Below, piece by piece: positions 1 to 23,142 of a DNA stretch of 64,000 bases (position 1 is the first letter of the stretch; each line of letters begins with the position of its first letter). A program made the translations under genes and the position numbers. The DNA lies in contig CALDYU010000001.1 in NCBI GenBank assembly GCA_937944485.1, positions 1 to 64,000 on the forward strand. Reading direction: 5' to 3'. Origin of the DNA: an uncultured Flavobacteriaceae bacterium. Its GTDB lineage: Bacteria; Bacteroidota; Bacteroidia; Flavobacteriales; Flavobacteriaceae. A model generated the notes under the pieces. The model had not been told where the DNA came from. It did no database searches and saw only the letters and a program-made list of their open reading frames with translations.

Positions 1-3000
1 TGCCGTGATAGCTACCGTACCAGCTGCTAAGGCTGTGACTAGTCCATTAGCATCGACTGTAGCAAGTGTCGTATCTGCACTTGACCAGGTTAGCTCTTGA
101 TTATCAGCATCACTGGGCTCAATACTAGCAGTAATACTACTAGTCTCACCTACTTCTAAATTCAAAGTTGTAGGACTTACTGTTATACCCGTGACGGCTG
201 TCGCCGGAAGCTCAACCTCTAAGAAATCAATATCAACTCCACCAAAATTAGAAGCAGTAGTAACTCTAATAGTATTTAAACCTTCAACTAAATCAATATT
301 GTCTAATTGTATGGATTGCCAACTAAAACAATTCGCTGAGGAATTAAACTCAATTTCACCCAAATTATTCCCGTTTACTACCAAATTTGCCTGTCTTTTA
401 AATACAAAGCCACTATTATAAACAATGGTCAGAGAACCTGTTACTGCTTCGCTACTATTAAATTGCCATTCACCAAAGCTATTATTGGCACTTAAATCTA
501 AAAAGCCAGTCCCCTGAAATCCGGGAAGATAATTCCCAACGTTTCCATCAACTACCTGATCAAAGTCTTCCCCTTCCAAAGTAATCAAACGATCATTATC
601 AGGACTGCCTTCATCGCCAGTAACGATAAGTGTCTGGCCTTGAGAAACCGTCGCCATACCTTGATGAATTGCCTTAGCGTAAACACAATAATTATTGGCT
701 GCATCAGGGATGAAATTCAAGTTATACGGTGAAGTCGAAGATCGACCAATTTCAACATCATCAACATAATAGATGACTTCTTCGATACTGAGTATATTGG
801 TTGAAACCGATAATACTACTGATTCCTCAACAGTCGCAGTCGTCGGCACCTGAAGTTCAAAATTGATTCCTTCTGAAGCTGCAGCCTCTGTTCCATCTAA
901 TTGCAGCAGATAGGCTTCTAATAATTCCAAATCGTTCTGAGACAAGCTCGCTGCTATCGCATGCCGTTCAACAGCATCTTTTACTGTAGCCGCACTACCA
1001 TCATGAAGATAGGGTGCAGTAGCCCATACATCTCTTAAGGTAGGAACATCAATACCTTGCAGCGCCCTGCCCAAACGCTTACCACTACTTGCTTCAACAG
1101 TGCCAATATCGTATAAAAGCCCTTTAGAAGAATTTGTAAATGCCTCACCACTATGGCAATTCGCACATTTTAAGTCATTAAACAAGGCTTTTCCTTGAAG
1201 AGCCGTCGCCGTCATTGTCCCGTTTTCATTTTTATTAGGACTTTCATCAAAACTATTCAATGATTCAATATAAGCATTAAGGGCATCAAGCTCAGGAGAT
1301 CTACCTTCTTTAGTTCCCCCCAGTGGGTTCTCACGGTTTTCAGAGAAAAAGTCTTGATCAGTCATAAAACCTGTTCCACCAAATGCAAATCGAATATCAT
1401 TCTCAAAGTCATGAATTTCATCAAAATTTCCACTCCAATGCACGTTTCCATGATCGTTACCCGCTCGCCCCCTTAGAGAAATTGTATTCCGGAGGCCTTC
1501 TCCACGCTGCGTAAAGTCCCAAGTCTGACCATCATCGGTACCATCTATATGACAAGAAGCACAGCTAATATAACCGCCATCCGAATTTTCCTGTTGCGTC
1601 ATTCTGCTATCACGAGCATCATAAAACATCTGTTTTCCCTGTAACACTTGATTACTTAAAAGTTCACTGGACACCGTACCAACCTCTGATAATAAAGGTA
1701 AGACTCGATTTCCTGACGTAATCAAATCATTCGCGTCAAAAACATGAATGCTCCTACTTAAAAAGTTCTTGACGAAAAGGCGGTTGTTTGTAGGATCAAT
1801 TATAATACCTGATGGTGCAAATCCCACATCTCGCCTTAACACCTCAAGACCATTGTTGGCATCAAGAACTACGATACGGTTATTTGCGAGCATGGTGACA
1901 AAAACATAATTACCTAAAGGACTTATAGTAATTCCTGTGGGTAAACTATGATTATCAATATCTACACGATCTATTGTTCTCTCTTGTCCTGATCCGATTG
2001 AAAAGTTTGAAACCATAGCTCTGATCGTTGTGGCAAAATTCAAATTCTGCCCAGATCGAAATGCTCCAGTCAAAGTATTGTCCTTTTTAGCCGTAAACCA
2101 AGCTTTATCACTTTCTGGTTGTATTGCTATTCCCCCCAGGTAATTGGCAATTCCTTTTGCCTCAGTACTCGTATTTGAAGAAAAAGTATCTGCCTGGATA
2201 TTCACACTTGAATTAAGTTCGAAATCAGTTAGGTTAATCTTCGCGATCTTTCCTTGATTATTTTCTGTTACAAACTGAGTTACAAATAACTGCGATCCAT
2301 CTGCAGTAATAGCCAAGGCCCTAGGTTTAGCAAATACTGATAGTTCGTCTACTACGGTTTGGTTCGTCGCACTAATTTTTAACACTTTATTTGAAGCAAA
2401 CAAACTTATATAAAGAAATTCACCTTCAGGATCGTTTACGACACCATAAGGTTGTGACCCTCTACCAACGTTTATCGTATTCAGTAGGGTGCCTCCAGGA
2501 TTTAGAATTTGAACTACACCCGCATCTCTACAAGTTATCCAAATATTTCCTTGAGAATCTTTAGCAATACTGACGGGGTCAGCAGCAACTGTATACTCAT
2601 TAATAAGTGCAAAGGTATCAGCGTTAAGAACACTTACGGTATTATTGTCTGGGTTCACCACCCAAACTCTTCTTGTACTCGAATCAACAATAATTGGAGA
2701 ACTTTGAGTTGGTCTAAGAGGAAGACTCGAGACAACTACTTCCGCTTGAGCCATAAAATCACCATCATTTGTAGTTACGGTAATGGTTGCTGTACCTTCG
2801 CCTATTGCAGTTACCTGCCCGTTTTCATCAACAATAGCAATACTTTCATCACTACTTGACCAAGCAACTGACGAATCGTCGGCATCAGCTGGACTTACGG
2901 TAGCTGTTAAATTTCCAGTTTCCCCTTCAAGCAATTCCAATGTTGCGGTGTTAAGGTTTACTCCCGTTACAAGAGTTGGAAGCCTTTCTACAGTTATGGT

Positions 3001-5526
3001 GCTTGTAGCCTCAAAGCTACCATTGTTCGTGGTTACTGTAATTATTGCGGAGCCCTCAGAAACTGCTGTTACCTGCCCCATTGCATCAACGGTTGCCACG
3101 CCTTCATCACTACTTGACCAAGTGACCGAAGTGTCATCTGCATTCGTCGGTTGAACATTGGCGGTCAACTGTGCACTACTACCAGCAGTTAGGTCAAGCG
3201 TAATTGGTGTTACCATTACGCCTGTCACATTTACTGGAGCCAGTATTAAATTTGTAGAAAGCACGTTACCAGGTATTACCTCAGCAGGCTCACTACCATT
3301 GCCATCGCTAGGTCTTCTCCACCCCACGGCAAGGTTATCTCCCCCACCGCGCTCTTTCATGAAAGCTTCGATATAATAGCTCAATCCTTGAACTAAGTGA
3401 ATACCTACAGATTTTTGTTCAGGAAACTTGTTCCATTCTCGTGATGCGCTCCAGTTAGGTACGTTGGCAATCATGGCAACATTAGATACATCATTGTCAG
3501 GGCTCAGATTGAGGCGAGATTCATCATCGCCGGCTACCCAAAAGTAGTAAGTACCCGTCTCAGGGGCACATAGATAACCTCTAACTCTTACGCCATAATC
3601 ATCTGCAACATTTGTCGGAATCTCAAAACTATTAAGTTCTTGTGTTGAACTTGGATTGTTGGGGTAGTTTGGCGAATTAAACAATTCTTCTAATAAAACC
3701 CCTCCAATTCCATCATATCGTTCCATCAATATCGTACCACTGGCAATACACACGCCTTCGCTTTCAACTACAGTTACTAAAGTCTGAGCAGTAAAACTAC
3801 CGTCATTAGTTGTTACCGTAATCGTTGCTGTACCTGTTCCGACAGCCGATATATTACCGTTAGTATCGACCGTAGCAATGCTAGAATCTGAACTACTCCA
3901 ACTAACAGTTTGGTCATCTGCACTTGCTGGACTAATGGTTGCCATCAAAGAATAAGTGCGCCCTATTGCCAATTCAATACTATTACGGTTTACTTCCACA
4001 CCAGTCACAGAAATAATACTTTGTACCATCCGAACCGCTTCTGCTACACTAGGAACTCCATTTTGATCTATCGCAAATAGCATGTAATAGCCAGGAGGCA
4101 TTACATTTGCATTAGGAACATTTAAGGAATAAGTGTTTCCGTTTCTAGAAAATGAAACAGGAACTCTGCGTTGTTCATTATTTACACTGTGGGTTGCCGA
4201 CGACATTCTAATGAAAGAAAATGACTCAATATCGTCGCTACTTTGTACTTGCATTGTTTGATTATACTGCGCAATTTCAGGAGCTGAAATTTCAGGTCGG
4301 TCTGCTAAGTTTCCACTAGAATCAAAAAGATAAGGCGGACTATAGATTTCGGCATCCTCATGGTTAACTGTACAGCCACCACAAAGTCCTCCTCCACCTG
4401 AAAATACACGGCCGTCCATCATTAAGACTGATACACTGTGATAGTTACGGGGAACTTGCATACCTGCCACTGTTCTCCACATATTAGTCTGAGGATTCCA
4501 AATCTCCGCATTCAATCGAGATCCGCCATCGAAAAATACACGAGCTGTACTAAGCCCCCCTACGATTAAAACCTCTCCATTAGGCAATACTACGCTATTA
4601 TGATGGGTTCTTGTAAAAGCCACATCATTCGCAGTTCTTGTAACTGTTACATTACTCTCGTTATTGATATCGATAACATATGACTTCTCACTTGCTGGGG
4701 CTCCTTCCCCATAGTTAATAGCACCACCAACTTTTAATATTTTACCGATGTCATACATCACCGTAGTACCAGAGATAGAGTATAGGTCATCTGATCTTTT
4801 TCCTGCAAAAGTGAAGGAACCATTTCCATTAACATCAAGCCAATGCATATCTTCACTCGGCCCTGCATGGAATACTTTACCATTAGGTGCACTCCAGACC
4901 CAAGCATGGTCCGCTGGTCTACTATGACCCCCTGCTAAATCATTATTGTTGAACAAAACTTCCATTGGAATACCTGGCAAGCTCTTCCACCCATTCTCAA
5001 GGGTCCATATTTCTCCCATCTTTCCAGTACGTCCTCCATCCCATTGTCCTCCTATAGTAAACACTCCTCCATTGGCTAGTGTAACATTTCCCTGATACGC
5101 CCGTGCCACATTCATATTGTTGGATGGCGTCCAGGTCTCAGTCTGAGGATCATATAATGTCGTTCTAGGGGCAGAACCACCACCAGCTACCAGTATTCTT
5201 CCGTCCGCAAGGTTATTAATTCCCGAACAGAACATATTATGATTATTATCAGTGATTTTCAAACCCAGAGGTTGCCCATTTACGCCTAGATTTGGATCAA
5301 ATATTTCGGTATAGGTAAAACCGTCAGCCGCGTCAAATCGACTATCACGATAACGAGAAGACCATGTTAGAAGTCTACCATCGGGTAAATTAGCTACCGC
5401 AGAGGGGACCAGATTAAGTAGAATGGGGTCACTCCACTCTCCCACATTCTGCTGGTTTTGTGCCTTAAGATTAAAAGAAATGAGTAATAATAGTGTAACT
5501 GTAAGAGCTATGTAATTTTTTTTCAT
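1..5526 (-). CDS. Secreted multidomain galactose oxidase-like / di-heme cytochrome c peroxidase-like fusion protein (partial; C-terminus beyond left edge)
   Basis: Minus frame reads from ATG (5526-5524) to window base 1 with no stop in the lines checked. Starts MKKNYIALTVTLLLLISFNLKAQ (signal peptide). Contains MFCSG, VARAYQGN, FTIGGQWDGG, NYHSVSVLMMDGRVFSGGGGLCGGCTVNH and SATHSVNNEQRR (galactose oxidase motifs), Big2 repeats, a PA14-like region, a YVTN/YncE-like propeller, CASCH and CANCH heme motifs, and PTLRDVWATAPYLHDGSAATVKDAVERH. Absent from the ORF track because it is not closed in the window. Confidence 0.93.
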   Translation of the reverse strand, partial: MKKNYIALTVTLLLLISFNLKAQNQQNVGEWSDPILLNLVPSAVANLPDGRLLTWSSRYRDSRFDAADGFTYTEIFDPNLGVNGQPLGLKITDNNHNMFCSGINNLADGRILVAGGGSAPRTTLYDPQTETWTPSNNMNVARAYQGNVTLANGGVFTIGGQWDGGRTGKMGEIWTLENGWKSLPGIPMEVLFNNNDLAGGHSRPADHAWVWSAPNGKVFHAGPSEDMHWLDVNGNGSFTFAGKRSDDLYSISGTTVMYDIGKILKVGGAINYGEGAPASEKSYVIDINNESNVTVTRTANDVAFTRTHHNSVVLPNGEVLIVGGLSTARVFFDGGSRLNAEIWNPQTNMWRTVAGMQVPRNYHSVSVLMMDGRVFSGGGGLCGGCTVNHEDAEIYSPPYLFDSSGNLADRPEISAPEIAQYNQTMQVQSSDDIESFSFIRMSSATHSVNNEQRRVPVSFSRNGNTYSLNVPNANVMPPGYYMLFAIDQNGVPSVAEAVRMVQSIISVTGVEVNRNSIELAIGRTYSLMATISPASADDQTVSWSSSDSSIATVDTNGNISAVGTGTATITVTTNDGSFTAQTLVTVVESEGVCIASGTILMERYDGIGGVLLEELFNSPNYPNNPSSTQELNSFEIPTNVADDYGVRVRGYLCAPETGTYYFWVAGDDESRLNLSPDNDVSNVAMIANVPNWSASREWNKFPEQKSVGIHLVQGLSYYIEAFMKERGGGDNLAVGWRRPSDGNGSEPAEVIPGNVLSTNLILAPVNVTGVMVTPITLDLTAGSSAQLTANVQPTNADDTSVTWSSSDEGVATVDAMGQVTAVSEGSAIITVTTNNGSFEATSTITVERLPTLVTGVNLNTATLELLEGETGNLTATVSPADADDSSVAWSSSDESIAIVDENGQVTAIGEGTATITVTTNDGDFMAQAEVVVSSLPLRPTQSSPIIVDSSTRRVWVVNPDNNTVSVLNADTFALINEYTVAADPVSIAKDSQGNIWITCRDAGVVQILNPGGTLLNTINVGRGSQPYGVVNDPEGEFLYISLFASNKVLKISATNQTVVDELSVFAKPRALAITADGSQLFVTQFVTENNQGKIAKINLTDFELNSSVNIQADTFSSNTSTEAKGIANYLGGIAIQPESDKAWFTAKKDNTLTGAFRSGQNLNFATTIRAMVSNFSIGSGQERTIDRVDIDNHSLPTGITISPLGNYVFVTMLANNRIVVLDANNGLEVLRRDVGFAPSGIIIDPTNNRLFVKNFLSRSIHVFDANDLITSGNRVLPLLSEVGTVSSELLSNQVLQGKQMFYDARDSRMTQQENSDGGYISCASCHIDGTDDGQTWDFTQRGEGLRNTISLRGRAGNDHGNVHWSGNFDEIHDFENDIRFAFGGTGFMTDQDFFSENRENPLGGTKEGRSPELDALNAYIESLNSFDESPNKNENGTMTATALQGKALFNDLKCANCHSGEAFTNSSKGLLYDIGTVEASSGKRLGRALQGIDVPTLRDVWATAPYLHDGSAATVKDAVERHAIAASLSQNDLELLEAYLLQLDGTEAAASEGINFELQVPTTATVEESVVLSVSTNILSIEEVIYYVDDVEIGRSSTSPYNLNFIPDAANNYCVYAKAIHQGMATVSQGQTLIVTGDEGSPDNDRLITLEGEDFDQVVDGNVGNYLPGFQGTGFLDLSANNSFGEWQFNSSEAVTGSLTIVYNSGFVFKRQANLVVNGNNLGEIEFNSSANCFSWQSIQLDNIDLVEGLNTIRVTTASNFGGVDIDFLEVELPATAVTGITVSPTTLNLEVGETSSITASIEPSDADNQELTWSSADTTLATVDANGLVTALAAGTVAITA
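900..1690 (-). other. Di-heme cytochrome c peroxidase / MauG-like domain
   Basis: Two CXXCH motifs: CASCH at 1549-1563 and CANCH at 1153-1167; family-typical RDVWATAPYLHDGSAATVKDAVERH between them and the domain end. Confidence 0.88.
2743..3258 (-). repeat. Tandem Big2 (bacterial Ig-like) domain repeats, about 258 bp period
   Basis: Two adjacent copies of VTGV...A..DDSSV.WSSSDE.(S/G)(I/V)A.VD..GQVTA..EG.A.ITVTTN.G; ttcatcactacttgaccaag at 2845 and again at 3103 (258 bp apart). Further single copies near 3770-4015 and 1-210. Confidence 0.85.
4025..5460 (-). other. Galactose oxidase domain (kelch propeller plus C-terminal DUF1929-like domain)
   Basis: By-eye correspondence with fungal galactose oxidase: Cys at 5227-5229, Tyr at 5095-5097, Trp at 5041-5043, Tyr-His at 4438-4443, His at 4189-4191; ends PPGYYMLFAIDQNGVPSVAEAVRM. 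Confidence 0.88.
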
Positions 5527-5929: not shown

Positions 5930-8900
5930 ATGATTACAAGAATTACCAGTTTTCTGATAGATAACAAGATCTTAACTTCAGTAGGTCTATTATTCGTTAT
6001 CGCATTGGGTTTTATTACTGCTCCATTTGATCTTGGCGGCGACTTTTTGCCGAAAAACCCTGTGGCAGTGGATGCCATACCCAACATTGGAGAAAACCAA
6101 CAAATTGTTTTCACAGAATGGAATGGTCAATCTCCACAAGATATAGAAGACCAAATCACTTATCCCCTAACGTCAAATTTATTAGGAATACCAGGGGTTA
6201 AATCTATTCGAAGTAATTCCATGTTCGGATTTTCTAGCATTTACATCATTTTCGAAGACGATGTTGAGTTTTACTGGTCAAGGGCAAGGGTTCTCGAAAA
6301 ACTAAATTCATTATCTAAGCAACTTCTACCTAACGGAGTGCAACCTAAGTTAGGGCCAGATGCAACAGCATTAGGGCAACTATATTGGTACACCTTAGAA
6401 GGGCGCGATAGTCTGGGCAATGTTACAGGAGGATGGGATTTACCAGAACTGAGAGGCATACAAGATTTCTATGTGAAAAATGCACTTTCAGCTACAAGTG
6501 GTGTCGCAGAAGTGGCATCGGTGGGTGGTTTTGTAAAGGAATATCAAATTGATGTTAAACCTGAATTACTTAAGCAATATGGCATTTCACTACACCAAGT
6601 TGTAGATGCAATCAAAAGTACAAATAGAGATGTTGGAGCCCAGACCCTAGAAATTAATCAAGCAGAGTATTTCGTAAGAGGCTTGGGGTATATAAAATCT
6701 ATTGAAGATATTGAGCGCACCAGTATTGTAGCCACAAACAATACCCCAATAATTGTGGGCGATGTTGCCCAAGTATTTATGGGGCCAGCGGAACGCCGAG
6801 GAATATTAGATAAAGGCGGCGCCGAGGTGGTTGGTGGTGTGGTTACCGCACGTTTCGGGGCTAATCCCATGGAAGTTATTGAAAATCTTAAAAAGTCAAT
6901 AGAAGAAACGAGTACAGGTTTACCGAAAAAAACACTTAAAGATGGCAGAACCTCTCAACTGACCATTGTTCCATTTTATGACCGTTCTGAACTGATAAGT
7001 GAATCGTTGACTACTTTAGGAAATGCTTTAGCCTATGAAATTTTAATTGCAATTTTCGTGGTTTTGGTCATGCTTAGAAGCATAAAAGTGTCCTTTCTTG
7101 TTTCCGGACTAATGCCTATGGCGGTGTTGATGGTATTTCTTGCCATGAAGTTTTTTGAGGTTGATGCCAATATCGTAGCCCTTTCGGGTATCGCAATTGC
7201 TATCGGTACTGTTGTTGATTTAGGCATTATACTTACAGAAAATATTGTAAGGCATCAACAAGAATTTCCTGAGAAATTGCTGAAAGCAAATGTAAAGAGT
7301 GGTGCTAAAGAAGTTTCAGGAGCCATCCTCACAGCAGGTTTAACTACTATTTTGAGTTTTATTCCTGTATTTACCCTAACTGGTGCTGAAGGAAAACTCT
7401 TCTTTCCATTAGCTTTCACAAAAACTGTCGCGCTTATTGCTGCTATAGGGCTAACACTATTTGTTATTCCGCCACTAGCAGTTATTTTGTTTGATCGTCG
7501 TAAAACAAATTCAATGCCCACAATTGGTGCCATATGCTTTTTATTAATAGGGATATTAGTCTGTTTTTATGGATTTTATATAGGCATCTTTTTGGTATTG
7601 CTAGGATTGCTTCAATTGCTTTTTCTTTATGATAAAATAGGTGCTAGACAGAAAAAATGGATAACCTTAATTTTAGCACTGGGCGTTATAGTTTTATTAT
7701 TATCCTACTATTGGCAACCCTTGGGTCTGGGCAGCCATTGGCTTACCAATGGCCTATTTATTATCTTACTTTTAGCCTTTGTTTTAATCCCATTACATTA
7801 TTTCATAAAGCGATATGAAGATATACTAAGATGGGTGCTGCTCAATAAATGGAAGAGTATTGCTGCTCCTATTTTGTTTGTGTTTTTAGGAATTGCAATA
7901 CTATTATCATTAGGCAAAGAGTTTATGCCCACTTTAGATGAAGGAGATTTTGTGCTCATGCCTACGTCGCTTCCACAGGCTGGAGTTGCACAAAATTCTA
8001 GAGTTCTTAAAAAATTAGATCTTGCTGTAGCTTCATTGCCAGAAGTTGAATATGTAGTTGGAAAAGCTGGTCGTGTTGAATCTGCTTTAGACCCTGCGCC
8101 GCTATCCATGTATGAAAACCTAATCTCGTATAAATCAGAATACATTCTCAATGAAAAGGGGGACCCCATACGATTTGAAACTAATGAGAAAGGTAATTTT
8201 AAGTTGCGTTCAGGCGGATTTATTGCAGCAGGAAATCACGTTAAACGCCAGCAACTGGTAGAAGATAGTAGTGGCGAATATTATAGAAATTGGAGAACTC
8301 ACATTAATAACGAGGGGGATATTTGGGACGAGATAGTGCAAAGCACTAGATTGCCTGGTGTTACATCGGCACCACAATTACAACCTATTGAAACGAGGTT
8401 GGTGATGCTCCAGACGGGAATGCGATCTAATCTCGGAATAAAGGTAAAAGGACAAAATTTAGAGGCCCTAGAAGCCTTTTCCCTAGTATTGGAAGAAGAA
8501 GTCAAAAAAGTGAATGGAATACGTAAGTCATCGGTATTTGCTGATAGAATAGTAGGAAAACCCTATTTGTTGATTGATATTGACCGAAGTAAAATTTCTA
8601 GGTACGGTCTACGTATAGAAGCAATACAACAAACTTTAGAAGTTGCCATAGGTGGAAAAGTTGTAGGGCAGAGCATTGAAGGCAGGGAACGCTATTCAAT
8701 ACGTATTCGTTACCCACGTGAGTTGAGAGGAACCCCCGAAGCATTAAAGAATATCTATGTCGATTTACCTCATGGTGGAACCTTGCCGCTATCAGAATTT
8801 GTTGAAATAAATTATAAACAAGGTCCTCAAAGTATTAAGAGTGAGGATGGTTTCTTAGTAAGCTACGTTATTTTCGATAAGGTTAAAAGTATTTCTGAGG

Positions 8901-9610
8901 TAGCCCTAGTAGAAAGAGTAAAAAAAGTACTTTCTGATAAAATTGATTCGGGAGAAGTTGTAGTTCCTCAAGGTGTGAACTACGTGTTTAGTGGAACATT
9001 TGAAAACCATGTCCATGCCCAAAAAACTTTAGGTTTTGTTATACCCTTGGTGCTTATTATCATTTTATTATTGCTATATCTCCAATTCCGTTCACTATCA
9101 GTTTCATTGATGGTATTTTCTGGTATTGCAGTGGCTTTTTCGGGTGGATTTATTATGATCTGGCTTTATGGTCAACCTTGGTTTATGAATATGGATATAG
9201 GATTCGGGAATTTTAGAGAGCTCTTTAATATGCAAACCGTACATCTCAGTGTTGCAGTATGGGTTGGTTTTATTGCTTTATTTGGCATCGCAACAGATGA
9301 TGGTGTGGTTATGGCTACTTACCTTAAGCAATCATTTAACGATCATAAAACAAATGATGTTTCGGCGATAAGAGAAGCGGTCATTCTAGCTGGTAAAAAA
9401 AGAATAAGACCCTGTTTAATAACTACGGCGACAACCCTTCTGGCGCTCTTGCCCATTTTAATGTCGTCAGGAAAAGGCAGTAATATTATGATTCCCATGG
9501 CCATTCCAGCTTTTGGAGGGATGTTAATGGCATTAATTACGCTATTCGTCGTGCCTTTGCTCTTTTGTTGGAAAAAAGAAATAATTTTGAAAAAGCAATC
9601 CACTAATTAA
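5930..9610 (+). CDS. cusA: CusA/CzcA family heavy-metal efflux RND transporter permease
   Basis: 1226 aa; ENQQIVFTEWNGQSPQDIEDQITYPLTSNLLGIPGVKSIRSNS, GTVVDLGIILTENIVRH and the GIATDDGVVMATYL region are typical of HME-RND permeases. Confidence 0.93.
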   Translation: MITRITSFLIDNKILTSVGLLFVIALGFITAPFDLGGDFLPKNPVAVDAIPNIGENQQIVFTEWNGQSPQDIEDQITYPLTSNLLGIPGVKSIRSNSMFGFSSIYIIFEDDVEFYWSRARVLEKLNSLSKQLLPNGVQPKLGPDATALGQLYWYTLEGRDSLGNVTGGWDLPELRGIQDFYVKNALSATSGVAEVASVGGFVKEYQIDVKPELLKQYGISLHQVVDAIKSTNRDVGAQTLEINQAEYFVRGLGYIKSIEDIERTSIVATNNTPIIVGDVAQVFMGPAERRGILDKGGAEVVGGVVTARFGANPMEVIENLKKSIEETSTGLPKKTLKDGRTSQLTIVPFYDRSELISESLTTLGNALAYEILIAIFVVLVMLRSIKVSFLVSGLMPMAVLMVFLAMKFFEVDANIVALSGIAIAIGTVVDLGIILTENIVRHQQEFPEKLLKANVKSGAKEVSGAILTAGLTTILSFIPVFTLTGAEGKLFFPLAFTKTVALIAAIGLTLFVIPPLAVILFDRRKTNSMPTIGAICFLLIGILVCFYGFYIGIFLVLLGLLQLLFLYDKIGARQKKWITLILALGVIVLLLSYYWQPLGLGSHWLTNGLFIILLLAFVLIPLHYFIKRYEDILRWVLLNKWKSIAAPILFVFLGIAILLSLGKEFMPTLDEGDFVLMPTSLPQAGVAQNSRVLKKLDLAVASLPEVEYVVGKAGRVESALDPAPLSMYENLISYKSEYILNEKGDPIRFETNEKGNFKLRSGGFIAAGNHVKRQQLVEDSSGEYYRNWRTHINNEGDIWDEIVQSTRLPGVTSAPQLQPIETRLVMLQTGMRSNLGIKVKGQNLEALEAFSLVLEEEVKKVNGIRKSSVFADRIVGKPYLLIDIDRSKISRYGLRIEAIQQTLEVAIGGKVVGQSIEGRERYSIRIRYPRELRGTPEALKNIYVDLPHGGTLPLSEFVEINYKQGPQSIKSEDGFLVSYVIFDKVKSISEVALVERVKKVLSDKIDSGEVVVPQGVNYVFSGTFENHVHAQKTLGFVIPLVLIIILLLLYLQFRSLSVSLMVFSGIAVAFSGGFIMIWLYGQPWFMNMDIGFGNFRELFNMQTVHLSVAVWVGFIALFGIATDDGVVMATYLKQSFNDHKTNDVSAIREAVILAGKKRIRPCLITTATTLLALLPILMSSGKGSNIMIPMAIPAFGGMLMALITLFVVPLLFCWKKEIILKKQSTN

Positions 9611-9618
9611 TAAAAATT

Positions 9619-11340
9619 ATGATAAAAAAATGGAGCGTTTATACTGTTTTGGTTCTCGCAGGGCTCCTTCTTGGTTATCTTTTTTTTGGATTAGACAAGC
9701 CCTCGAAAGCCCCAGAAGATGAAATGGCTTTTGAAGCTGAGTCTGGCAGATGGACTTGCTCCATGCATCCAAACATAGATGGTGAAGAGCAGGGTAAATG
9801 TCCGTTATGTGCCATGGATCTAGTGTTCATGTCGAACCACCCAGAGGTATTAACTTCAAATCAAATATCCATGAGTGAAGAAGCGTCGGCTTTGGCCAAT
9901 ATTCAAACTACAGTTGTGGGCACAACAGATTCAGAAGGTATTTCTCTAAAATTGTCTGGGACAGTTACCTCTAATAAAAAAACCGATGCCATTCAAACCA
10001 TCCTTTTTGATGGCAGAATAGATGCCCTTTATCCAAATTATGTTGGAAAAAAAGTTAGAAATGGTCAAGAAATAGGAAAAGTCTATTCTCCAGAGCTGTA
10101 TTTAGCCCAAGACAAATTATTAACATCAGTTTCATATAAGGAAACCCATAAAAATTTGTATGAATCTGCTAGAAATACCCTTGGTTTGTGGAAGATGAAC
10201 GATAGCCAAATAGATGAAATGATTGCGCTTGGAAAGCCTATGGTAAACTTTCCACTTTATGCTGACGTCACGGGCACAGTTACAGAAGTTCTGGCTACAG
10301 AAGGAAATTATTACAAACAGGGAGACCCATTGTATCGAGTTTCAGATTTAAGATGGGTTTGGGTGGTTTTAGATGCCTACGAAGAACAACTTCAATTATT
10401 GCAAGTTGGTCAAGAAATGGAATTACGATTTACAGCATTGCCTAATGAGGTTCATACGGCAAAGGTCTCTTTTGTAGAACCTGTGATGCAAAAAAATAAA
10501 CGTACAATTGCTGTACGCGTTCTTTTGAAAAACGAAAAGGGAAAGTTAAAACCAGGAATGTTCGCAGAAGCCCAAATTAAAGCTACTAGCAATCAGGAAA
10601 ATACTTTAGCCATTCCTAAATCAGCTGTTCTTTGGACAGGAAAACGTTCTATAGTGTATAAAAAACCTAACCCCGAAAAACCCACATATGAATTGGTAGA
10701 AGTAGAACTAGGACAAAGTTTTACGGATAGTTACGAAGTAATTTCAGGGCTTTCCGTTGGCGACGAAATCGTTACCCATGGTGCTTTTACCGTTGATGCT
10801 GCAGCCCAACTCATGGGCAAAACTTCAATGATGAACAAGACCAAGAATAACGACTACCCTGTTCAAATGGAAGAATTACCTACTTTGGATACCCGAGAAC
10901 GTAAAACTTTATCTATTGACAAAAATATAGGCTTTGAACGATTGCTTAAGGTTTATTTTGAACTTAAAGATGCATTGGTTACTGCAGATTATAAGCTAGC
11001 TCAACAGAAAACAGTTAGTCTACATCAGGCTTTGGAAGTAACATTAAAAAACGAATCACTTAGCGAAGCTTCACTAAAAGTGATGCAAGGGGGAATGGAA
11101 ACTTTGATGAGTGCTACAGACATAGCATCACTAAGAAAAGGATTTAAGCCTTTTTCCCGTGATTTAATTCGGATAATCAGAGATGCCAAAAACCTATCAA
11201 AAACGGTTTACGTTCAATTTTGTCCCATGGCAGATGAAGGTAAAGGCGCAAGTTGGTTAAGTCTTAACGAAAAAGTTGAAAACCCATATTTTGGTGAAAC
11301 CATGTTGCATTGTGGAGTGGTCAAGGAAGAAATCAACTAA
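9619..11340 (+). CDS. cusB: Efflux RND transporter periplasmic adaptor (CusB-like) with N-terminal heavy-metal-binding domain and C-terminal DUF3347-like domain
   Basis: WTCSMHPNIDGEEQGKCPLCAMDLV metal-binding motif, membrane-fusion core, Cys/Met/His-containing C-terminus; 8 nt after cusA. Confidence 0.9.
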   Translation: MIKKWSVYTVLVLAGLLLGYLFFGLDKPSKAPEDEMAFEAESGRWTCSMHPNIDGEEQGKCPLCAMDLVFMSNHPEVLTSNQISMSEEASALANIQTTVVGTTDSEGISLKLSGTVTSNKKTDAIQTILFDGRIDALYPNYVGKKVRNGQEIGKVYSPELYLAQDKLLTSVSYKETHKNLYESARNTLGLWKMNDSQIDEMIALGKPMVNFPLYADVTGTVTEVLATEGNYYKQGDPLYRVSDLRWVWVVLDAYEEQLQLLQVGQEMELRFTALPNEVHTAKVSFVEPVMQKNKRTIAVRVLLKNEKGKLKPGMFAEAQIKATSNQENTLAIPKSAVLWTGKRSIVYKKPNPEKPTYELVEVELGQSFTDSYEVISGLSVGDEIVTHGAFTVDAAAQLMGKTSMMNKTKNNDYPVQMEELPTLDTRERKTLSIDKNIGFERLLKVYFELKDALVTADYKLAQQKTVSLHQALEVTLKNESLSEASLKVMQGGMETLMSATDIASLRKGFKPFSRDLIRIIRDAKNLSKTVYVQFCPMADEGKGASWLSLNEKVENPYFGETMLHCGVVKEEIN

Positions 11341-13652: not shown

Positions 13653-16052
13653 TTATTTTCCGATAAATCGTAAAATCGTAAAATTCTTATTCACTTCAAA
13701 AAATTTATTCTCTTTCAGCCCAGCTTTATCTAGACTTATCTTTTCATTATCAATCTCTATGCCATCAATCTCAAAAGGCAAACCATGTAAATTTATTTGA
13801 AACAACTCATAACTAGTAATATAACTGCCATCCTTATGTTGTTGTATAGTCAATTCTGTGGCTTTACCCGTAAGTTTAAATTTTCTTAAACTATATCTTC
13901 CTTTGGTATAATCATAACCATCTTGACCATCTTCATAAACCATAGAATTTTCAACGCCTTCTTTATAATAAACATCTAAAGAGAGCTCTTTTATCTCTTT
14001 TTCCCCTACATACTGCTGCACTGGGTATTTAGGTACAATTGCTCCTTCTTTCACAAATAAAGGAATACTATCAATATCAGCTTCTACCCATTTTTCTTTT
14101 CCGCCCTCTAAAATTTCATCAGTCCAGAAATTATACCATTTCCCCCTTGGGATATACATGCGTCTTCCGTGTGCATTAGGTTCTTGAACGGGGCATACTA
14201 AAATTTGATCTCCGAAAATAAACTCATCGGTTCTAAAATGTGTTTGGGCATCTTCTTGATCATACATAACCAAAGACTTCAACATGGCTATTCCATTTTG
14301 AGAATAATTATAAAACATCGAATACAAATAGGGTAGTAATTGATATCTCAGCTCAATAAATTTTCGAACAACATCTGTTATATCGCTATCAAAGGACCAA
14401 GGTTCTTGATCACCATGATCACCACTAGAGTGAACTCTAAAAAATGGGTGAAAAGTACCTAACTGAACCCATCTTGCAAAGAGTTCTCCATTTGGTTGTT
14501 CCGCGAAGCCGCCAATGTCTGAACCTACAAAGGAGTAACCACTCATACACATACGTTGCATCTGTACATTAGCCAACCACAAATGCTCCCAAGTAGCAAC
14601 ATTATCACCTGTCCAAGTGCAAGCATAACGCTGCGTACCAGCATAAGCCGCTCTAGTTATTACAAAGGGTCGCTTTGGATAACTGTGTTTTTTAACGCCA
14701 TTGTAAGTAGCACGTACCATTTGCATACCATAAACGTTATGTGCCTTTCGGTGTGTACTGGGGTTGCCATCATAATTATGCCTCGTATCTAAAGGTGCAG
14801 TTTTTGACGGAACCTCCATAATCGCAGGTTCATTCATATCATTCCATACGGCATGAACACCTATCTCTGCCATAAATTCTTTATACAATTCTGCCCACCA
14901 AGCGCGTACATCAGGATTTGTAAAATCTGGAAAGTGGCATTCTCCTGGCCAAACTTTACCATGCATATATGGGCCATCACCCCGTTTGCAGAAATAATCA
15001 TTTTCCATGGCCTCTTTATACACCCAATAATTGCGATCAATTTTAATTCCTGGATCTATCATGACCACAGTCTTAAAACCATCTTCTTCCAATTCATTGA
15101 TCATTCGTTTGGGATCAGGAAAACGAGTTTTATCCCAGGTAAAACATCGAAAACCATCCATATAATCGATGTCTAAGTAGATGGCGTCACATGGAATTTT
15201 TAGATTTCTGAAATTTCGAGCTATTTCTTTTACATTACTCTCGGGAAAATAACTCCATTTTGATTGCTGAAAACCTAATGCCCATAGGGGAGGTAATTCT
15301 GGTTTTCCTGTTAAGTCGGTGTACAATCGTACCACTTTTGACATATCAGGACCATAAATAAAATAGTAGTTCATTTCACCGCCATCAGCCCAAAAGCTTG
15401 TGGTATTTCGTCTTTCATGAGCAAAATCAAAATGGGTTTTGAATGAATTATCAAAGAATATTCCATAAGCCTTACCGTTCGTAAGCCCTACATAAAACGG
15501 AATTGCCTTGTACAATGGGTCGCGATCTTTACCATAGGCATAAGAGTCAGTTACCCAATTTTGAAACCTTTTTCCTTTTAAATTAGAATGTGTAGCCTTA
15601 TCACCCAAACCATAAAAACTCTCTCCTATTTGGGTTATTTTGCTCATTTTAACGGTATTGCCGCCGTATTCATAATTCTCTTCCCAGTGAAAGCCTATTT
15701 CATCTTCATTGATAATATGCCCTTCAGGATCCGAAATTTGAACACGCATGGTTTTTTTATCAACCAAAACCTTCATTCTAATCGTTTCAATCAGATATTC
15801 CGTAGCGGTTTCTTCTACTAAGAGTTTATCGTAGCCTCTTCGTCCGACTTTGCTAATCGCATAAGAAAAATCAGTACTGAAATTATAATCTGTTGTATAT
15901 CGAAACCTCAGCATACTATTTCTAAGCACGGTAATTTGTAGTACAACGCCGTTTTCTGAAGTAAAGTAAAGCTTGTCAACATCTTGTAAAAAATCGACAA
16001 TTTGATTCGGGTATAAATTCCCCTTATATTCTAATTCTGTATTTGTAATCAT
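13653..16052 (-). CDS. GH31 family alpha-glucosidase
   Basis: 799 aa; PCDAIYLDIDYMDGFRCFTWD, HAVWNDMNEPA, RPFVITRAAYAGTQRYACTWTGDN. Confidence 0.94.
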   Translation of the reverse strand: MITNTELEYKGNLYPNQIVDFLQDVDKLYFTSENGVVLQITVLRNSMLRFRYTTDYNFSTDFSYAISKVGRRGYDKLLVEETATEYLIETIRMKVLVDKKTMRVQISDPEGHIINEDEIGFHWEENYEYGGNTVKMSKITQIGESFYGLGDKATHSNLKGKRFQNWVTDSYAYGKDRDPLYKAIPFYVGLTNGKAYGIFFDNSFKTHFDFAHERRNTTSFWADGGEMNYYFIYGPDMSKVVRLYTDLTGKPELPPLWALGFQQSKWSYFPESNVKEIARNFRNLKIPCDAIYLDIDYMDGFRCFTWDKTRFPDPKRMINELEEDGFKTVVMIDPGIKIDRNYWVYKEAMENDYFCKRGDGPYMHGKVWPGECHFPDFTNPDVRAWWAELYKEFMAEIGVHAVWNDMNEPAIMEVPSKTAPLDTRHNYDGNPSTHRKAHNVYGMQMVRATYNGVKKHSYPKRPFVITRAAYAGTQRYACTWTGDNVATWEHLWLANVQMQRMCMSGYSFVGSDIGGFAEQPNGELFARWVQLGTFHPFFRVHSSGDHGDQEPWSFDSDITDVVRKFIELRYQLLPYLYSMFYNYSQNGIAMLKSLVMYDQEDAQTHFRTDEFIFGDQILVCPVQEPNAHGRRMYIPRGKWYNFWTDEILEGGKEKWVEADIDSIPLFVKEGAIVPKYPVQQYVGEKEIKELSLDVYYKEGVENSMVYEDGQDGYDYTKGRYSLRKFKLTGKATELTIQQHKDGSYITSYELFQINLHGLPFEIDGIEIDNEKISLDKAGLKENKFFEVNKNFTILRFIGK

Positions 16053-16131
16053 TAATGGTTGATTAATATCTTAAAAAATACGGCAGACCTTATAAATTTG
16101 TGATAACATCTATTCGGTTGCGCGTATTGTC

Positions 16132-18030
16132 CTATTTAAAAATAATTATACTCAATGGCGGAATGGTCATCTCGATAGACTTCTTATAGCCATGCCATGC
16201 TATCGCGCTAAGCTTAGAAATATGGGTTTCCATTCCTGAACCTCCATATTTCTTAACGTCACTATTGAACAATTCTTTCACTTGTCCTGATTTTTTAGGA
16301 AGACCTATTCTATAATTTTTGCGTGGCACGGGCGTCAAATTTAAGGCCACATAGATATCATTCTCCTCGTCATGCCCTTTTCGAACATAGGTAAGTACAG
16401 AATTCTCATGATCGCCATAGTCTATCCATTGGAAACCATCAGGGCTAAATTGTTTCTCATACAAAGCCGGATGTGATTTATAAAATACATTCAAATCTTT
16501 TACTAATTCTTGAACACCAGGATGCACCTCATAATCTAATAAATGCCAATCTAAACTCTGCTGAAAATTCCATTCAGCCGTTTGTCCAAATTCTGATCCC
16601 ATAAAGATTAAATTGGTACCAGGGTGGGTATACATATACCCAAAAAGTAATCGAAGATTTGCGAATTGCTGCCACTCCTCTCCAGGCATTCTGTATACTA
16701 ATGATTTTTTGCCATAAACGACCTCATCATGAGAAAAGGGAAGCATGAAATTCTCTGTAAATGCATAGGTCATGCTAAATGTCAGATCATTTTGATGATA
16801 CTTTCTATTGATCGGGTCTTTCTTAAAATATTCTAAGGTATCATGCATCCATCCCATCATCCATTTCATTCCAAAACCAAGTCCACCTTGATTAACTGGC
16901 TTAGACACCCCTGAAAACGCCGTAGATTCTTCAGCAATAGTCTGAACTCCTTCAAAATTATCATACACCGCTTGATTCAGTTCACGAATAAAAGATAGTG
17001 CCTCTAAATTTTCGTTATTTCCGTACATATTAGGCTCCCACTCTCCTTCTTCCCTAGAATAATCTAAATAAAGCATTGAAGCTACAGCATCAACACGCAA
17101 TGCATCAGCATGAAACTGATCTAACCAGAATAACGCATTACTTATTAAAAAAGCACGGACTTCATTGCGTCCATAATTAAAAATTAAACTTTTCCAATCG
17201 GGGTGATAGCCTCTTCGTCTATCAGGATGCTCATACAAATGCGAACCATCAAAAAAACCAAGTCCGTGGGCATCTTCAGGAAAATGAGAAGGCACCCAAT
17301 CTAAGATAACACCTATATCATTTTGGTGTAGTTTATCTATAAGCAGTTTTAAGCCCTCTGGAGCCCCAAATCTTGAGGTTGGCGCGAAATAACCAGTCAG
17401 TTGATAGCCCCATGAAGGATCATAGGGGTATTCCATAACTGGCATAAACTCAACATGCGTAAAACCCATTTCCTTAACATAACTCACCAAATCTTTTGCT
17501 AAATTATCGTAGGACAAAAATTCATTTTCACCTTTCTTTTTCCAAGAACCTAGGTGAACTTCATATACCGAATAGGGTCGATCTAAACCATTTTTTTCAG
17601 CGCGATAACCCATCCACTTTTTATCCTTCCAAGTATATTTCGCATCCCATATAATTGAGGCTGTATTGGGTGGGTGTTCACAGTAACGGGCGAAAGGATC
17701 TGCTTTTTCAGTAACTATTTCACTATTATTTGATCTTATTTTATACTTATATATTTCGCCATGACCTATAGCTGGAATAAATCCTTCCCAAATACCACTT
17801 TCATCCCAGCGTACATTTAATGCATGCTCTCCTTCTTGCCAAGCATTGAACTCTCCAACAACAGAAACGGTCTTTGCCGTTGGTGCCCATACCGCAAAGT
17901 AAGTGCCTTCTTTTCCATTTAATTCTAAAGGATGCGCTCCCAACTTTTCATATAAGCGATAGTGCTTTCCTGACTTGAATAAATCAATATCAAACTCAGA
18001 AAATAAACTATGTGCAATAACATTTGGCAT
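16132..18030 (-). CDS. glgB: 1,4-alpha-glucan branching enzyme
   Basis: 632 aa; YEVHLGSWKKKG, DALRVDAVASMLYLDYSREEGEW, FSHDEVVYGKKSLV, GSEFGQTAEWN. Confidence 0.96.
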   Translation of the reverse strand: MPNVIAHSLFSEFDIDLFKSGKHYRLYEKLGAHPLELNGKEGTYFAVWAPTAKTVSVVGEFNAWQEGEHALNVRWDESGIWEGFIPAIGHGEIYKYKIRSNNSEIVTEKADPFARYCEHPPNTASIIWDAKYTWKDKKWMGYRAEKNGLDRPYSVYEVHLGSWKKKGENEFLSYDNLAKDLVSYVKEMGFTHVEFMPVMEYPYDPSWGYQLTGYFAPTSRFGAPEGLKLLIDKLHQNDIGVILDWVPSHFPEDAHGLGFFDGSHLYEHPDRRRGYHPDWKSLIFNYGRNEVRAFLISNALFWLDQFHADALRVDAVASMLYLDYSREEGEWEPNMYGNNENLEALSFIRELNQAVYDNFEGVQTIAEESTAFSGVSKPVNQGGLGFGMKWMMGWMHDTLEYFKKDPINRKYHQNDLTFSMTYAFTENFMLPFSHDEVVYGKKSLVYRMPGEEWQQFANLRLLFGYMYTHPGTNLIFMGSEFGQTAEWNFQQSLDWHLLDYEVHPGVQELVKDLNVFYKSHPALYEKQFSPDGFQWIDYGDHENSVLTYVRKGHDEENDIYVALNLTPVPRKNYRIGLPKKSGQVKELFNSDVKKYGGSGMETHISKLSAIAWHGYKKSIEMTIPPLSIIIFK

Positions 18031-21948: not shown

Positions 21949-23142
21949 TTAATTTTCAACCAATTTATAGATCGCCCCATCAAAACCGCAGATATACAAT
22001 TCGTTGCGTATATCAGTACCAAAAGATGCGACGTTAAAGCCAAGGTCAACAAGAAGTTGATTTTCTAAGTCGTCATTTAAATTGGTTGTCAGTGCCCAAA
22101 TTCTTCCTGATATAAAATCTCCGTAAATATACCTTCCCTCTAATGAAGGTGTATTCATACCTCGATAAACATACCCGCCCGTAACAGATCGATCATTATT
22201 ACTTTGATCGTACTCAAAAACCGGAGCGATTAATCCGTCTGTATCACAATTACTTGAACCAAAACAAGAGGTACCTTCTTGAATATTCCAACCATAATTA
22301 CCTCCTCTGTCAATCACATTAATTTCTTCAATTTTATTCTGACCAACATCACCCAACCATATATTTCCAGTTTCCGAATCAAAACTAAATCGCCAGGGGT
22401 TGCGAAGGCCATAGGCATATATTTCATCACGGGCACCTGTGTTTTCGATAAACGGATTATCACCTGGTATGGCATAATTTAGTCCATTTTCATTAGTATC
22501 AACATCAATTCTTAGAACTTTACCTAATAAATTGGTTAAATTTTGAGCATTGCCTTGCGGATCACCACCTGAGCCTCCATCACCAGATGCTATATATAAA
22601 AAGCCATCGGGACCAAACGCGATTTGACCACCATTGTGATTCGTAAAGGGTTGCGGAATTTCAAGTAAAATAGTTTCGCTATTTGCAATTGCATTATTCG
22701 CATCAGAAGGGTTTACCTGAAAACGCGCTACTACTGACATTGTTCTGGTAGGCGTATACATAACGTAGAAAAAGCCATTATCACCATAATTGGGGTGAAA
22801 CGCCAAACCTAAAAGTCCCAATTCATTCTGACTTACTAGCTGATTACTAATATCAAGAAATGTATTACTGTCAGTGGTTTCCTCCACATTGGGAAAAACT
22901 TTTATGGTACCCCCTTGCTCAACCACAAAAATTCGATCTGTATTATCAGAAGGGCTTTGAAAATCAACGGGTCTGACAAAATTTAAATTCGGAAACGCGT
23001 TTATTGCAGAAACTGTCATTTCACCCACCGGAGGTTCTTCTGTAGGGTTTTCCGATTCATCAGGATTCATTGGTGTATTATCTGAACCTGCGCATCCCAT
23101 AAAAAAAACTCCAAAAAATAAAAGACAATAGTTCCAATTCAT
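21949..23142 (-). CDS. PQQ-dependent sugar dehydrogenase (soluble aldose dehydrogenase-like), lipoprotein
   Basis: Lipobox VFFMGCAGSDN; ELGLLGLAFHPNYGDNGFFYVMYT, NHNGGQIAFGPDGFLYIASGDGGSGGDPQGNAQNL, GLRNPWRFSFD. Confidence 0.92.
   Translation of the reverse strand: MNWNYCLLFFGVFFMGCAGSDNTPMNPDESENPTEEPPVGEMTVSAINAFPNLNFVRPVDFQSPSDNTDRIFVVEQGGTIKVFPNVEETTDSNTFLDISNQLVSQNELGLLGLAFHPNYGDNGFFYVMYTPTRTMSVVARFQVNPSDANNAIANSETILLEIPQPFTNHNGGQIAFGPDGFLYIASGDGGSGGDPQGNAQNLTNLLGKVLRIDVDTNENGLNYAIPGDNPFIENTGARDEIYAYGLRNPWRFSFDSETGNIWLGDVGQNKIEEINVIDRGGNYGWNIQEGTSCFGSSNCDTDGLIAPVFEYDQSNNDRSVTGGYVYRGMNTPSLEGRYIYGDFISGRIWALTTNLNDDLENQLLVDLGFNVASFGTDIRNELYICGFDGAIYKLVEN

Follow-up and report, generated by a model that had tools for sequence, protein, structure and literature searches.

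At the start of the 64,000-nucleotide stretch of DNA analysed here (the window), from an uncultured Flavobacteriaceae bacterium, a long open reading frame appears to join a galactose oxidase to a di-heme cytochrome c domain. This raises the questions of whether a copper-radical oxidase and a heme pair truly belong to one polypeptide, how widely such a combination occurs, and what the heme half might do for the oxidase. Copper radical oxidases are valued biocatalysts, and their laboratory use depends on added peroxidase and catalase.

A galactose oxidase and a di-heme domain in one reading frame

Positions 1-5526 on the minus strand form a single open frame of 1842 amino acids from its ATG, and no stop or frameshift, which the sequence-only reading had named as what would refute it, separates the two halves. 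As that reading had claimed, one uninterrupted polypeptide contains both the site of a copper-radical oxidase and a pair of heme c sites, and its domain order was found to be correct when domains were called by Pfam, NCBIfam and PDB sequence searches. The features, all on the minus strand, are as follows.

5461..5526, minus: predicted signal peptide, aa 1-22, the hydrophobic N-terminus MKKNYIALTVTLLLLISFNLKAQ, read from the sequence
4015..5457, minus: galactose oxidase/copper radical oxidase, aa 24-504 (matches from aa 19), kelch propeller and GO-like E-set
4189..5229, minus: copper/Cys-Tyr site, residues aligned across 42 galactose oxidase domains
5227-5229, minus: C100
5095-5097, minus: Y144
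5041-5043, minus: W162
4441-4443, minus: Y362
4438-4440, minus: H363
4189-4191, minus: H446
3757..4014, minus: Big_2, aa 505-590 (PF02368)
3247..3738, minus: PA14, aa 597-760, putative glycan binding (PF07691, E 1.3e-8)
2731..3240, minus: two Big_2, aa 763-848 and 850-932 (PF02368)
1735..2712, minus: YVTN/YncE-like beta-propeller, about aa 939-1264 (TIGR03866, Vgb_lyase and L-NosZ matches)
883..1659, minus: di-heme domain of the CcP/MauG superfamily, hydrazine-synthase-gamma-like, about aa 1290-1548 (hmmsearch, Foldseek)
1549..1563, minus: heme 1 attachment CASCH, aa 1322-1326; C, C and H invariant in 53 modules
1402..1440, minus: distal-pocket motif HWSGNFDEIHDFE, aa 1363-1375 (alignment of 53 modules)
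1153..1167, minus: heme 2 attachment CANCH, aa 1454-1458 (CXXCH motif)
961..1011, minus: PYLHDGS motif (H1508) and candidate heme 2 sixth ligand H1522 (alignment)
607..882, minus: Ig-like (Big_7-type), aa 1549-1640 (PF17957, E 0.003, below cut-off)
217..579, minus: carbohydrate-binding-module-like, aa 1650-1770 (phmmer to CBM 2w3j at aa 1661-1771, E 5.6e-9)
1..216, minus: fourth Big_2, cut by the contig end, aa 1771-1842; terminal 141 bp common to contig C28

PF02368 (Big_2) thus accounts for four stretches of the window protein. The frame had been described as running off the edge; it is indeed open-ended, but the cut is the end of contig C1 and not the window edge alone. Contig C28 ends in exactly the same 141 bp as C1. 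Contigs C8 and C24 likewise overlap by exactly 141 bp, and the break in C1 is therefore an ordinary assembly fork of k-mer length (k=141) at a shared repeat. Recovery of the full frame from flanking sequence, as the earlier reading had proposed, was attempted without success, as none of the genome's contigs continues the 141-bp repeat towards the C-terminus. Type IX secretion (T9SS) tails at the starts of C3 and C24 were considered as the missing part and rejected: they do not extend the repeat, and C24 continues C8. The lost C-terminus possibly included a sorting domain; there are 16 matches to TIGR04183 in the genome by profile search, and a related fusion in another genome (G609, described below) has a Por_Secre_tail at its C-terminus. 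The gene at the end of C28 (G000; L004, L042) encodes an FG-GAP/UnbV-ASPIC protein with two CXXCH motifs and ends in the Big2 unit of the window gene (98% identity over 196 bp), a domain that appears to have been shared recently between these two secreted proteins.

In a draft assembly, and with contig C1 itself terminating in a shared Big2 repeat, the frame might be a chimera of two genes fused through such repeats. However, nothing else in the genome is nearly identical to the DNA of the junction between the oxidase and heme halves (2650-4060), base composition is even along the whole frame, and the same domain order is found in isolates and in other assemblies. On these grounds an assembly chimera was rejected, and it deserves hardly any credence.

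The galactose oxidase half

The N-terminal half matches the solved galactose oxidases 9g8h (E 6e-135) and 1gof (E 1e-100) as well as PF09118 (GO-like_E_set, E 5e-21) and Kelch_6. In an alignment of 42 galactose oxidase domains, C100, Y144, Y362, H363 and H446 are invariant and the stacking Trp (W162) varies; the five invariant residues correspond to those which, in the fungal enzyme 1gof, form the Cys-Tyr pair and supply the axial Tyr and the His ligands. Because all five are invariant, the copper/Cys-Tyr site appears complete at the level of sequence, and the oxidase half may be regarded as secure.

The propeller and di-heme half

An AlphaFold model of aa 927-1554 has a pLDDT of 91.5 and a pTM of 0.92, with the propeller mostly above 90, and the best Foldseek match of the propeller is hydrazine synthase beta (5c2v_B). 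The di-heme domain had been read earlier as cytochrome c peroxidase/MauG-like. This holds at the level of the superfamily, as there are two CXXCH motifs in a two-domain di-heme fold, matches to CCP_MauG/Cytochrom_C profiles, and an hhalign probability of 99.6 (E 3e-24) against MauG/MbnH-type proteins. The closest relatives, however, are the beta and gamma subunits of hydrazine synthase: the di-heme domain matches 5c2v_C (hydrazine synthase gamma) with an hmmsearch E of 2.8e-26, Foldseek places 5c2v_C at the top, followed by bacterial cytochrome c peroxidases (bCcPs), MbnH and MauG, and the propeller is followed directly by the gamma-like domain, as in the beta-gamma arrangement. Judged by sequence and modelled fold, the heme half is best described as a hydrazine-synthase beta-gamma-like propeller and di-heme module, not as MauG itself. 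Two marks of a functional hydrazine synthase, a full-length match to NF052342 and an alpha subunit among the scanned neighbours, were not found: this beta-gamma model scores 74.8 bits against a cut-off of 1250, and no alpha-like gene was identified among the scanned neighbour genes. According to PMC12758564, bacteria other than anammox organisms, Bacteroidota among them, commonly have fused beta-gamma homologues without known function; galactose oxidase is not mentioned in that paper. No close relatives of the window protein were found in viral contigs, and a fold search of viral proteins returned mostly propeller matches.

The two CXXCH motifs, HW..NFDE..D in the pocket and PYLHDG show little or no variation across 53 module sequences, with H1363, W1364, D1369, E1370 and D1373 of the distal pocket invariant, as is H1508, and with a His near 1522 in most modules. 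H1522 falls near the sixth-ligand position of heme 2 in an alignment offset by one residue; since a His stands near the position where CcP has Met and MauG has Tyr, heme 2 is probably bis-His, like the gamma-II heme of hydrazine synthase (PMC12758564; PMC12607021). At heme 1, the distal Gln, Pro and acid-base Glu that are canonical in bCcP and MauG, a set which BthA shares (PMC6405878), were not found by hhalign: the MauG-type Gln/Pro segment aligns to a gap, and no conserved residue of the module matches the Glu. The residues of the module therefore leave peroxide chemistry plausible without securing it, and the invariant D1369, E1370 and D1373 might be putative stand-ins for the distal triad.

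Fused relatives across phyla

The GTDB species-genome collection (85,462 species) was scanned with a three-sequence alignment of the module, and 80 module loci were found. In 59 of the 80, the N-terminal part belongs to one similarity group, whose scanned members contain Big_5 and PKD domains and often LVIVD. Galactose oxidase accompanies the module at 15 of the 80 loci, of which 12 are intact single frames with both hemes (L074, L076, L080, L082, L088, L090, L096, L103, L111, L114, L123 and L126) and in three the frame is broken or contains gaps (L107, L119 and L121). Two more intact fusions are present in another Bacteroidota family, one (G609) a collinear protein of 2480 aa and the other (G817) with 66% identity over 1524 aa. 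Beyond the window, therefore, there are 14 intact and 3 interrupted loci, distributed among Pseudomonadota, Verrucomicrobiota, Deinococcota and Bacteroidota, and intact fusions are found in the isolates Brevifollis gellanilyticus, Methylobrevis albus (a compact version of 1695 aa), Marinobacter salicampi and M. changyiensis. Both catalytic parts are retained between orthologues, with identities of 70% for the galactose oxidase, 76% for the di-heme domain and 59% for the linker in G609 and G817, and of 70% for the galactose oxidase, 59% for the propeller and 57% for the di-heme domain in the Marinobacter pair (L111 and L123). Galactose oxidase and the module each occur separately in Flavobacteriaceae and, among about 400 genomes drawn, are joined only in the window. 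Most members of the module family are without galactose oxidase, and the module might therefore carry out chemistry that does not involve H2O2; hydrazine synthase gamma, the closest relative with a solved structure, has been proposed to reduce NO.

In the complete genome of Marinobacter salarius (L107), the fusion gene lies in at least three frames, which may reflect decay or sequencing errors. A large family with Big5, PKD, YVTN and di-heme domains and an N-terminal LVIVD-type propeller (L047-L072 and others), whose members can reach about 2,300 aa or more, is found in Aquimarina, Tenacibaculum, Flammeovirga and relatives, and its N-terminal part occupies the position of the galactose oxidase in the window protein. 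One Flavobacteriaceae genome (G365; L158 and L159) encodes two different propeller/di-heme proteins.

A search of open-licence papers found no report of a fusion of galactose oxidase and heme domain, although with 17 further loci the architecture is not unique. The parts that make up this combination of galactose oxidase and heme module are known ones; the architecture itself is real, recurs and has apparently not been reported.

Independent origins of the fusion

In the module tree, the window module is placed within Bacteroidota modules that are without galactose oxidase (support 99). The remaining fused modules cluster apart from it, together with L089 and L099, the latter a truncated protein. 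A single clade of all fused modules was rejected (AU p 7.8e-6, or 0.008 with L089 and L099 added). At L089 (4393-8595), an FG-GAP N-terminus replaces galactose oxidase on the propeller/di-heme module, yet this module is inside the fused clade. The galactose oxidase tree, made by a quick method and with two long rows, places the window as sister to 24 heme-less domains of Flavobacteriaceae (support 99) and rejects a single clade of fused galactose oxidases (AU p 2.5e-47). These trees show that the window fusion arose separately, with at least two separate fusion events overall. Repeated joining of the same two parts argues for a functional link, and recurrence in several phyla together with an independent second origin makes such a link between the halves likely.

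Gene neighbourhoods

Genes for copper handling or of MauG type flank 9 of the 17 fused loci and only 1 of 65 others (Fisher p 7e-7, a value overstated because the loci are related and represent about four separate lineages). A gene fusing MbnP to MbnH is directly upstream at L080, L103 and L121; these one-gene fusions of a copper-binding protein and a MauG-like modifier are found in Verrucomicrobiota (L080:1253-3085, L103:1-1503 and L121:986-2878). A small gene and a MauG-like gene are directly downstream at L107, L111 and L123; the small genes are mutually similar in all three, and two of the three match YtkA. SCO1/SenC adjoins L090, L119 and, as a weaker case, L088. Both MbnP and SCO belong to families that handle copper, and their presence fits loading of the copper site.

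Directly upstream of the window fusion gene (5930-11340, plus strand) are genes for a divergent CusA/CzcA-type RND efflux pump and a CusB-like adaptor (HlyD_D23, HMBD, DUF3347). This pair is divergent and absent from the other fused loci, and it was set aside as context only; its position may be a coincidence. Genes downstream (13653-18030 and 21949-23142) encode a GH31 glycosidase, an alpha-amylase/CBM48 protein and a glucose/sorbosone dehydrogenase-like protein (GSDH).

Possible functions of the fused protein

Copper radical oxidases drop to an inactive state, reduced by one electron, from which heme peroxidases re-activate them; fungi encode an oxidase and a peroxidase side by side, and activation occurs even with modest peroxidase activity (PMC9770985; PMC10928124). 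The preferred reading of the window protein is that of a secreted, glycan-targeted copper-radical oxidase with its own heme redox partner, in which the heme uses H2O2 to reactivate the copper site, a proposal that is given somewhat less than an even chance. The galactose oxidase would oxidise a primary alcohol (C6 of galactose or a glycan side chain) to the aldehyde and yield H2O2, with which the di-heme domain would react; the oxidised heme would then withdraw a single electron from the oxidase in its inactive Cu(II)-tyrosine state and so restore the active radical. The di-heme domain would also use up peroxide that might otherwise accumulate, and the PA14, Big2 and CBM-like domains would keep both enzymes on one carbohydrate surface. 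This would be the logic of the fungal tandem of peroxidase and alcohol oxidase, transferred in cis to a single chain whose heme domain is unrelated to the fungal one. In its favour are the complete oxidase site, the two-heme fold, the recurrence of the pairing and its retention between orthologues, and the copper or MauG-type neighbours. Coupling of the two halves is what we infer. The weakest point is the missing conservation of the canonical Gln/Pro/Glu peroxidase pocket; the linker domains of about 430 aa between the halves, the many members of the module family that are without galactose oxidase and the single fusion among about 400 Flavobacteriaceae genomes also count against it. The sequence-only reading had offered peroxide removal, electron routing and modification of the Cys-Tyr site as possible roles, and each of these is likewise an inference.

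The other explanations differ in what the heme pair would act upon. An oxidase-peroxidase cascade, in which the di-heme domain oxidises an outside substrate (a phenolic, a dye or a glycan-linked aromatic) or scavenges H2O2 with electrons from an outside cytochrome or reductant and leaves the copper site untouched, would suit a module of the bCcP superfamily placed on a secreted protein with multiple CBMs; it is considered unlikely, as the canonical acid-base Glu and Gln are not conserved and an extracellular electron donor is not known. That domain shuffling has simply brought the halves together in one large, adhesin-like secreted protein, where a general-purpose heme unit has no chemical coupling to the oxidase, is judged quite unlikely. 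The pairing with galactose oxidase recurs across phyla from at least two origins, with conserved order and retention between orthologues, and copper or MauG-type neighbours are concentrated at the fused loci, even though the module is also found behind LVIVD/Big5/PKD, laminin-G, CBM6 or FG-GAP N-termini and galactose oxidase alone occurs with many CBMs and lectins.

A maturase of MauG/MbnH type would use peroxide to modify residues, such as those of the Cys-Tyr cross-link of the galactose oxidase or of a neighbouring copper protein, and the MauG-superfamily fold, the MbnP-MbnH genes immediately upstream of three fusions (L080, L103 and L121) and the MauG-like gene of the Marinobacter loci are in its favour. 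It is nevertheless improbable: formation of the Cys-Tyr link needs only copper and O2, many galactose oxidases in the same family are heme-less, and the loci with MbnP-MbnH or MauG already possess a separate canonical MauG/MbnH. Finally, the heme pair could be the electron acceptor of the oxidase, which would then be an alcohol dehydrogenase passing electrons to outside acceptors. Galactose oxidase reduces O2 efficiently, and the nearby genes of the window do not encode a further cytochrome chain, which makes this very improbable, despite the resemblance of the hydrazine-synthase-gamma-like heme 2, probably bis-His, to an electron-transfer heme (HZS gamma-II, PMC12758564).

Reactivation of the copper site by the heme module can be extended to a broader and distinctly tentative proposal: a previously undescribed class of bacterial self-activating copper-radical oxidases would use the H2O2 that they make to fire and protect the radical through the heme module, would have arisen at least two times, and would obtain copper through dedicated MbnP-MbnH, SCO and YtkA neighbours. 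A natural single-chain solution of this kind would show how bacteria keep a radical site active, and it would suggest what some of the hydrazine-synthase beta-gamma-like modules that are widespread but uncharacterised in bacteria other than anammox organisms may do. Because one bacterial family contains both heme-bearing and heme-less versions of the oxidase, coupling between oxidase and heme is open to a direct test.

Comparison with known systems

AA5 galactose oxidases (1gof, 9g8h) have the same full domain with the Cys-Tyr, Tyr, His and His ligands, but the solved enzymes have no heme domain, and the Flavobacteriaceae relatives of the window oxidase have only CBMs and lectins. MauG, MbnH and bacterial CcP (CCP_MauG) share with the window protein two CXXCH motifs, the PYxHDG motif, a Trp near heme 1 and the fold, whereas in the window module the distal Gln-Pro-Glu set is not conserved, the ligand of heme 2 is probably His instead of Met or Tyr, and a propeller is attached. 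Hydrazine synthase beta-gamma (5c2v; fused in Scalindua; NF052342) likewise places a di-heme gamma-like domain behind a seven-bladed propeller and is the best match in both sequence and fold; the window module differs in having a conserved Trp beside the pocket, as in non-anammox homologues (PMC12758564), and in being joined to galactose oxidase, with no alpha subunit seen nearby. The peroxidase and alcohol oxidase pair of the fungi Colletotrichum and Magnaporthe (PMC9770985) likewise combines an AA5-type oxidase with a heme peroxidase, both secreted, and there the peroxidase activates the oxidase by one-electron oxidation, as the heme half of the window protein may do. The fungal pair is encoded by two head-to-head genes and employs a class II plant-type peroxidase, whereas the window protein unites its copper-radical oxidase with a c-type di-heme domain in one polypeptide.
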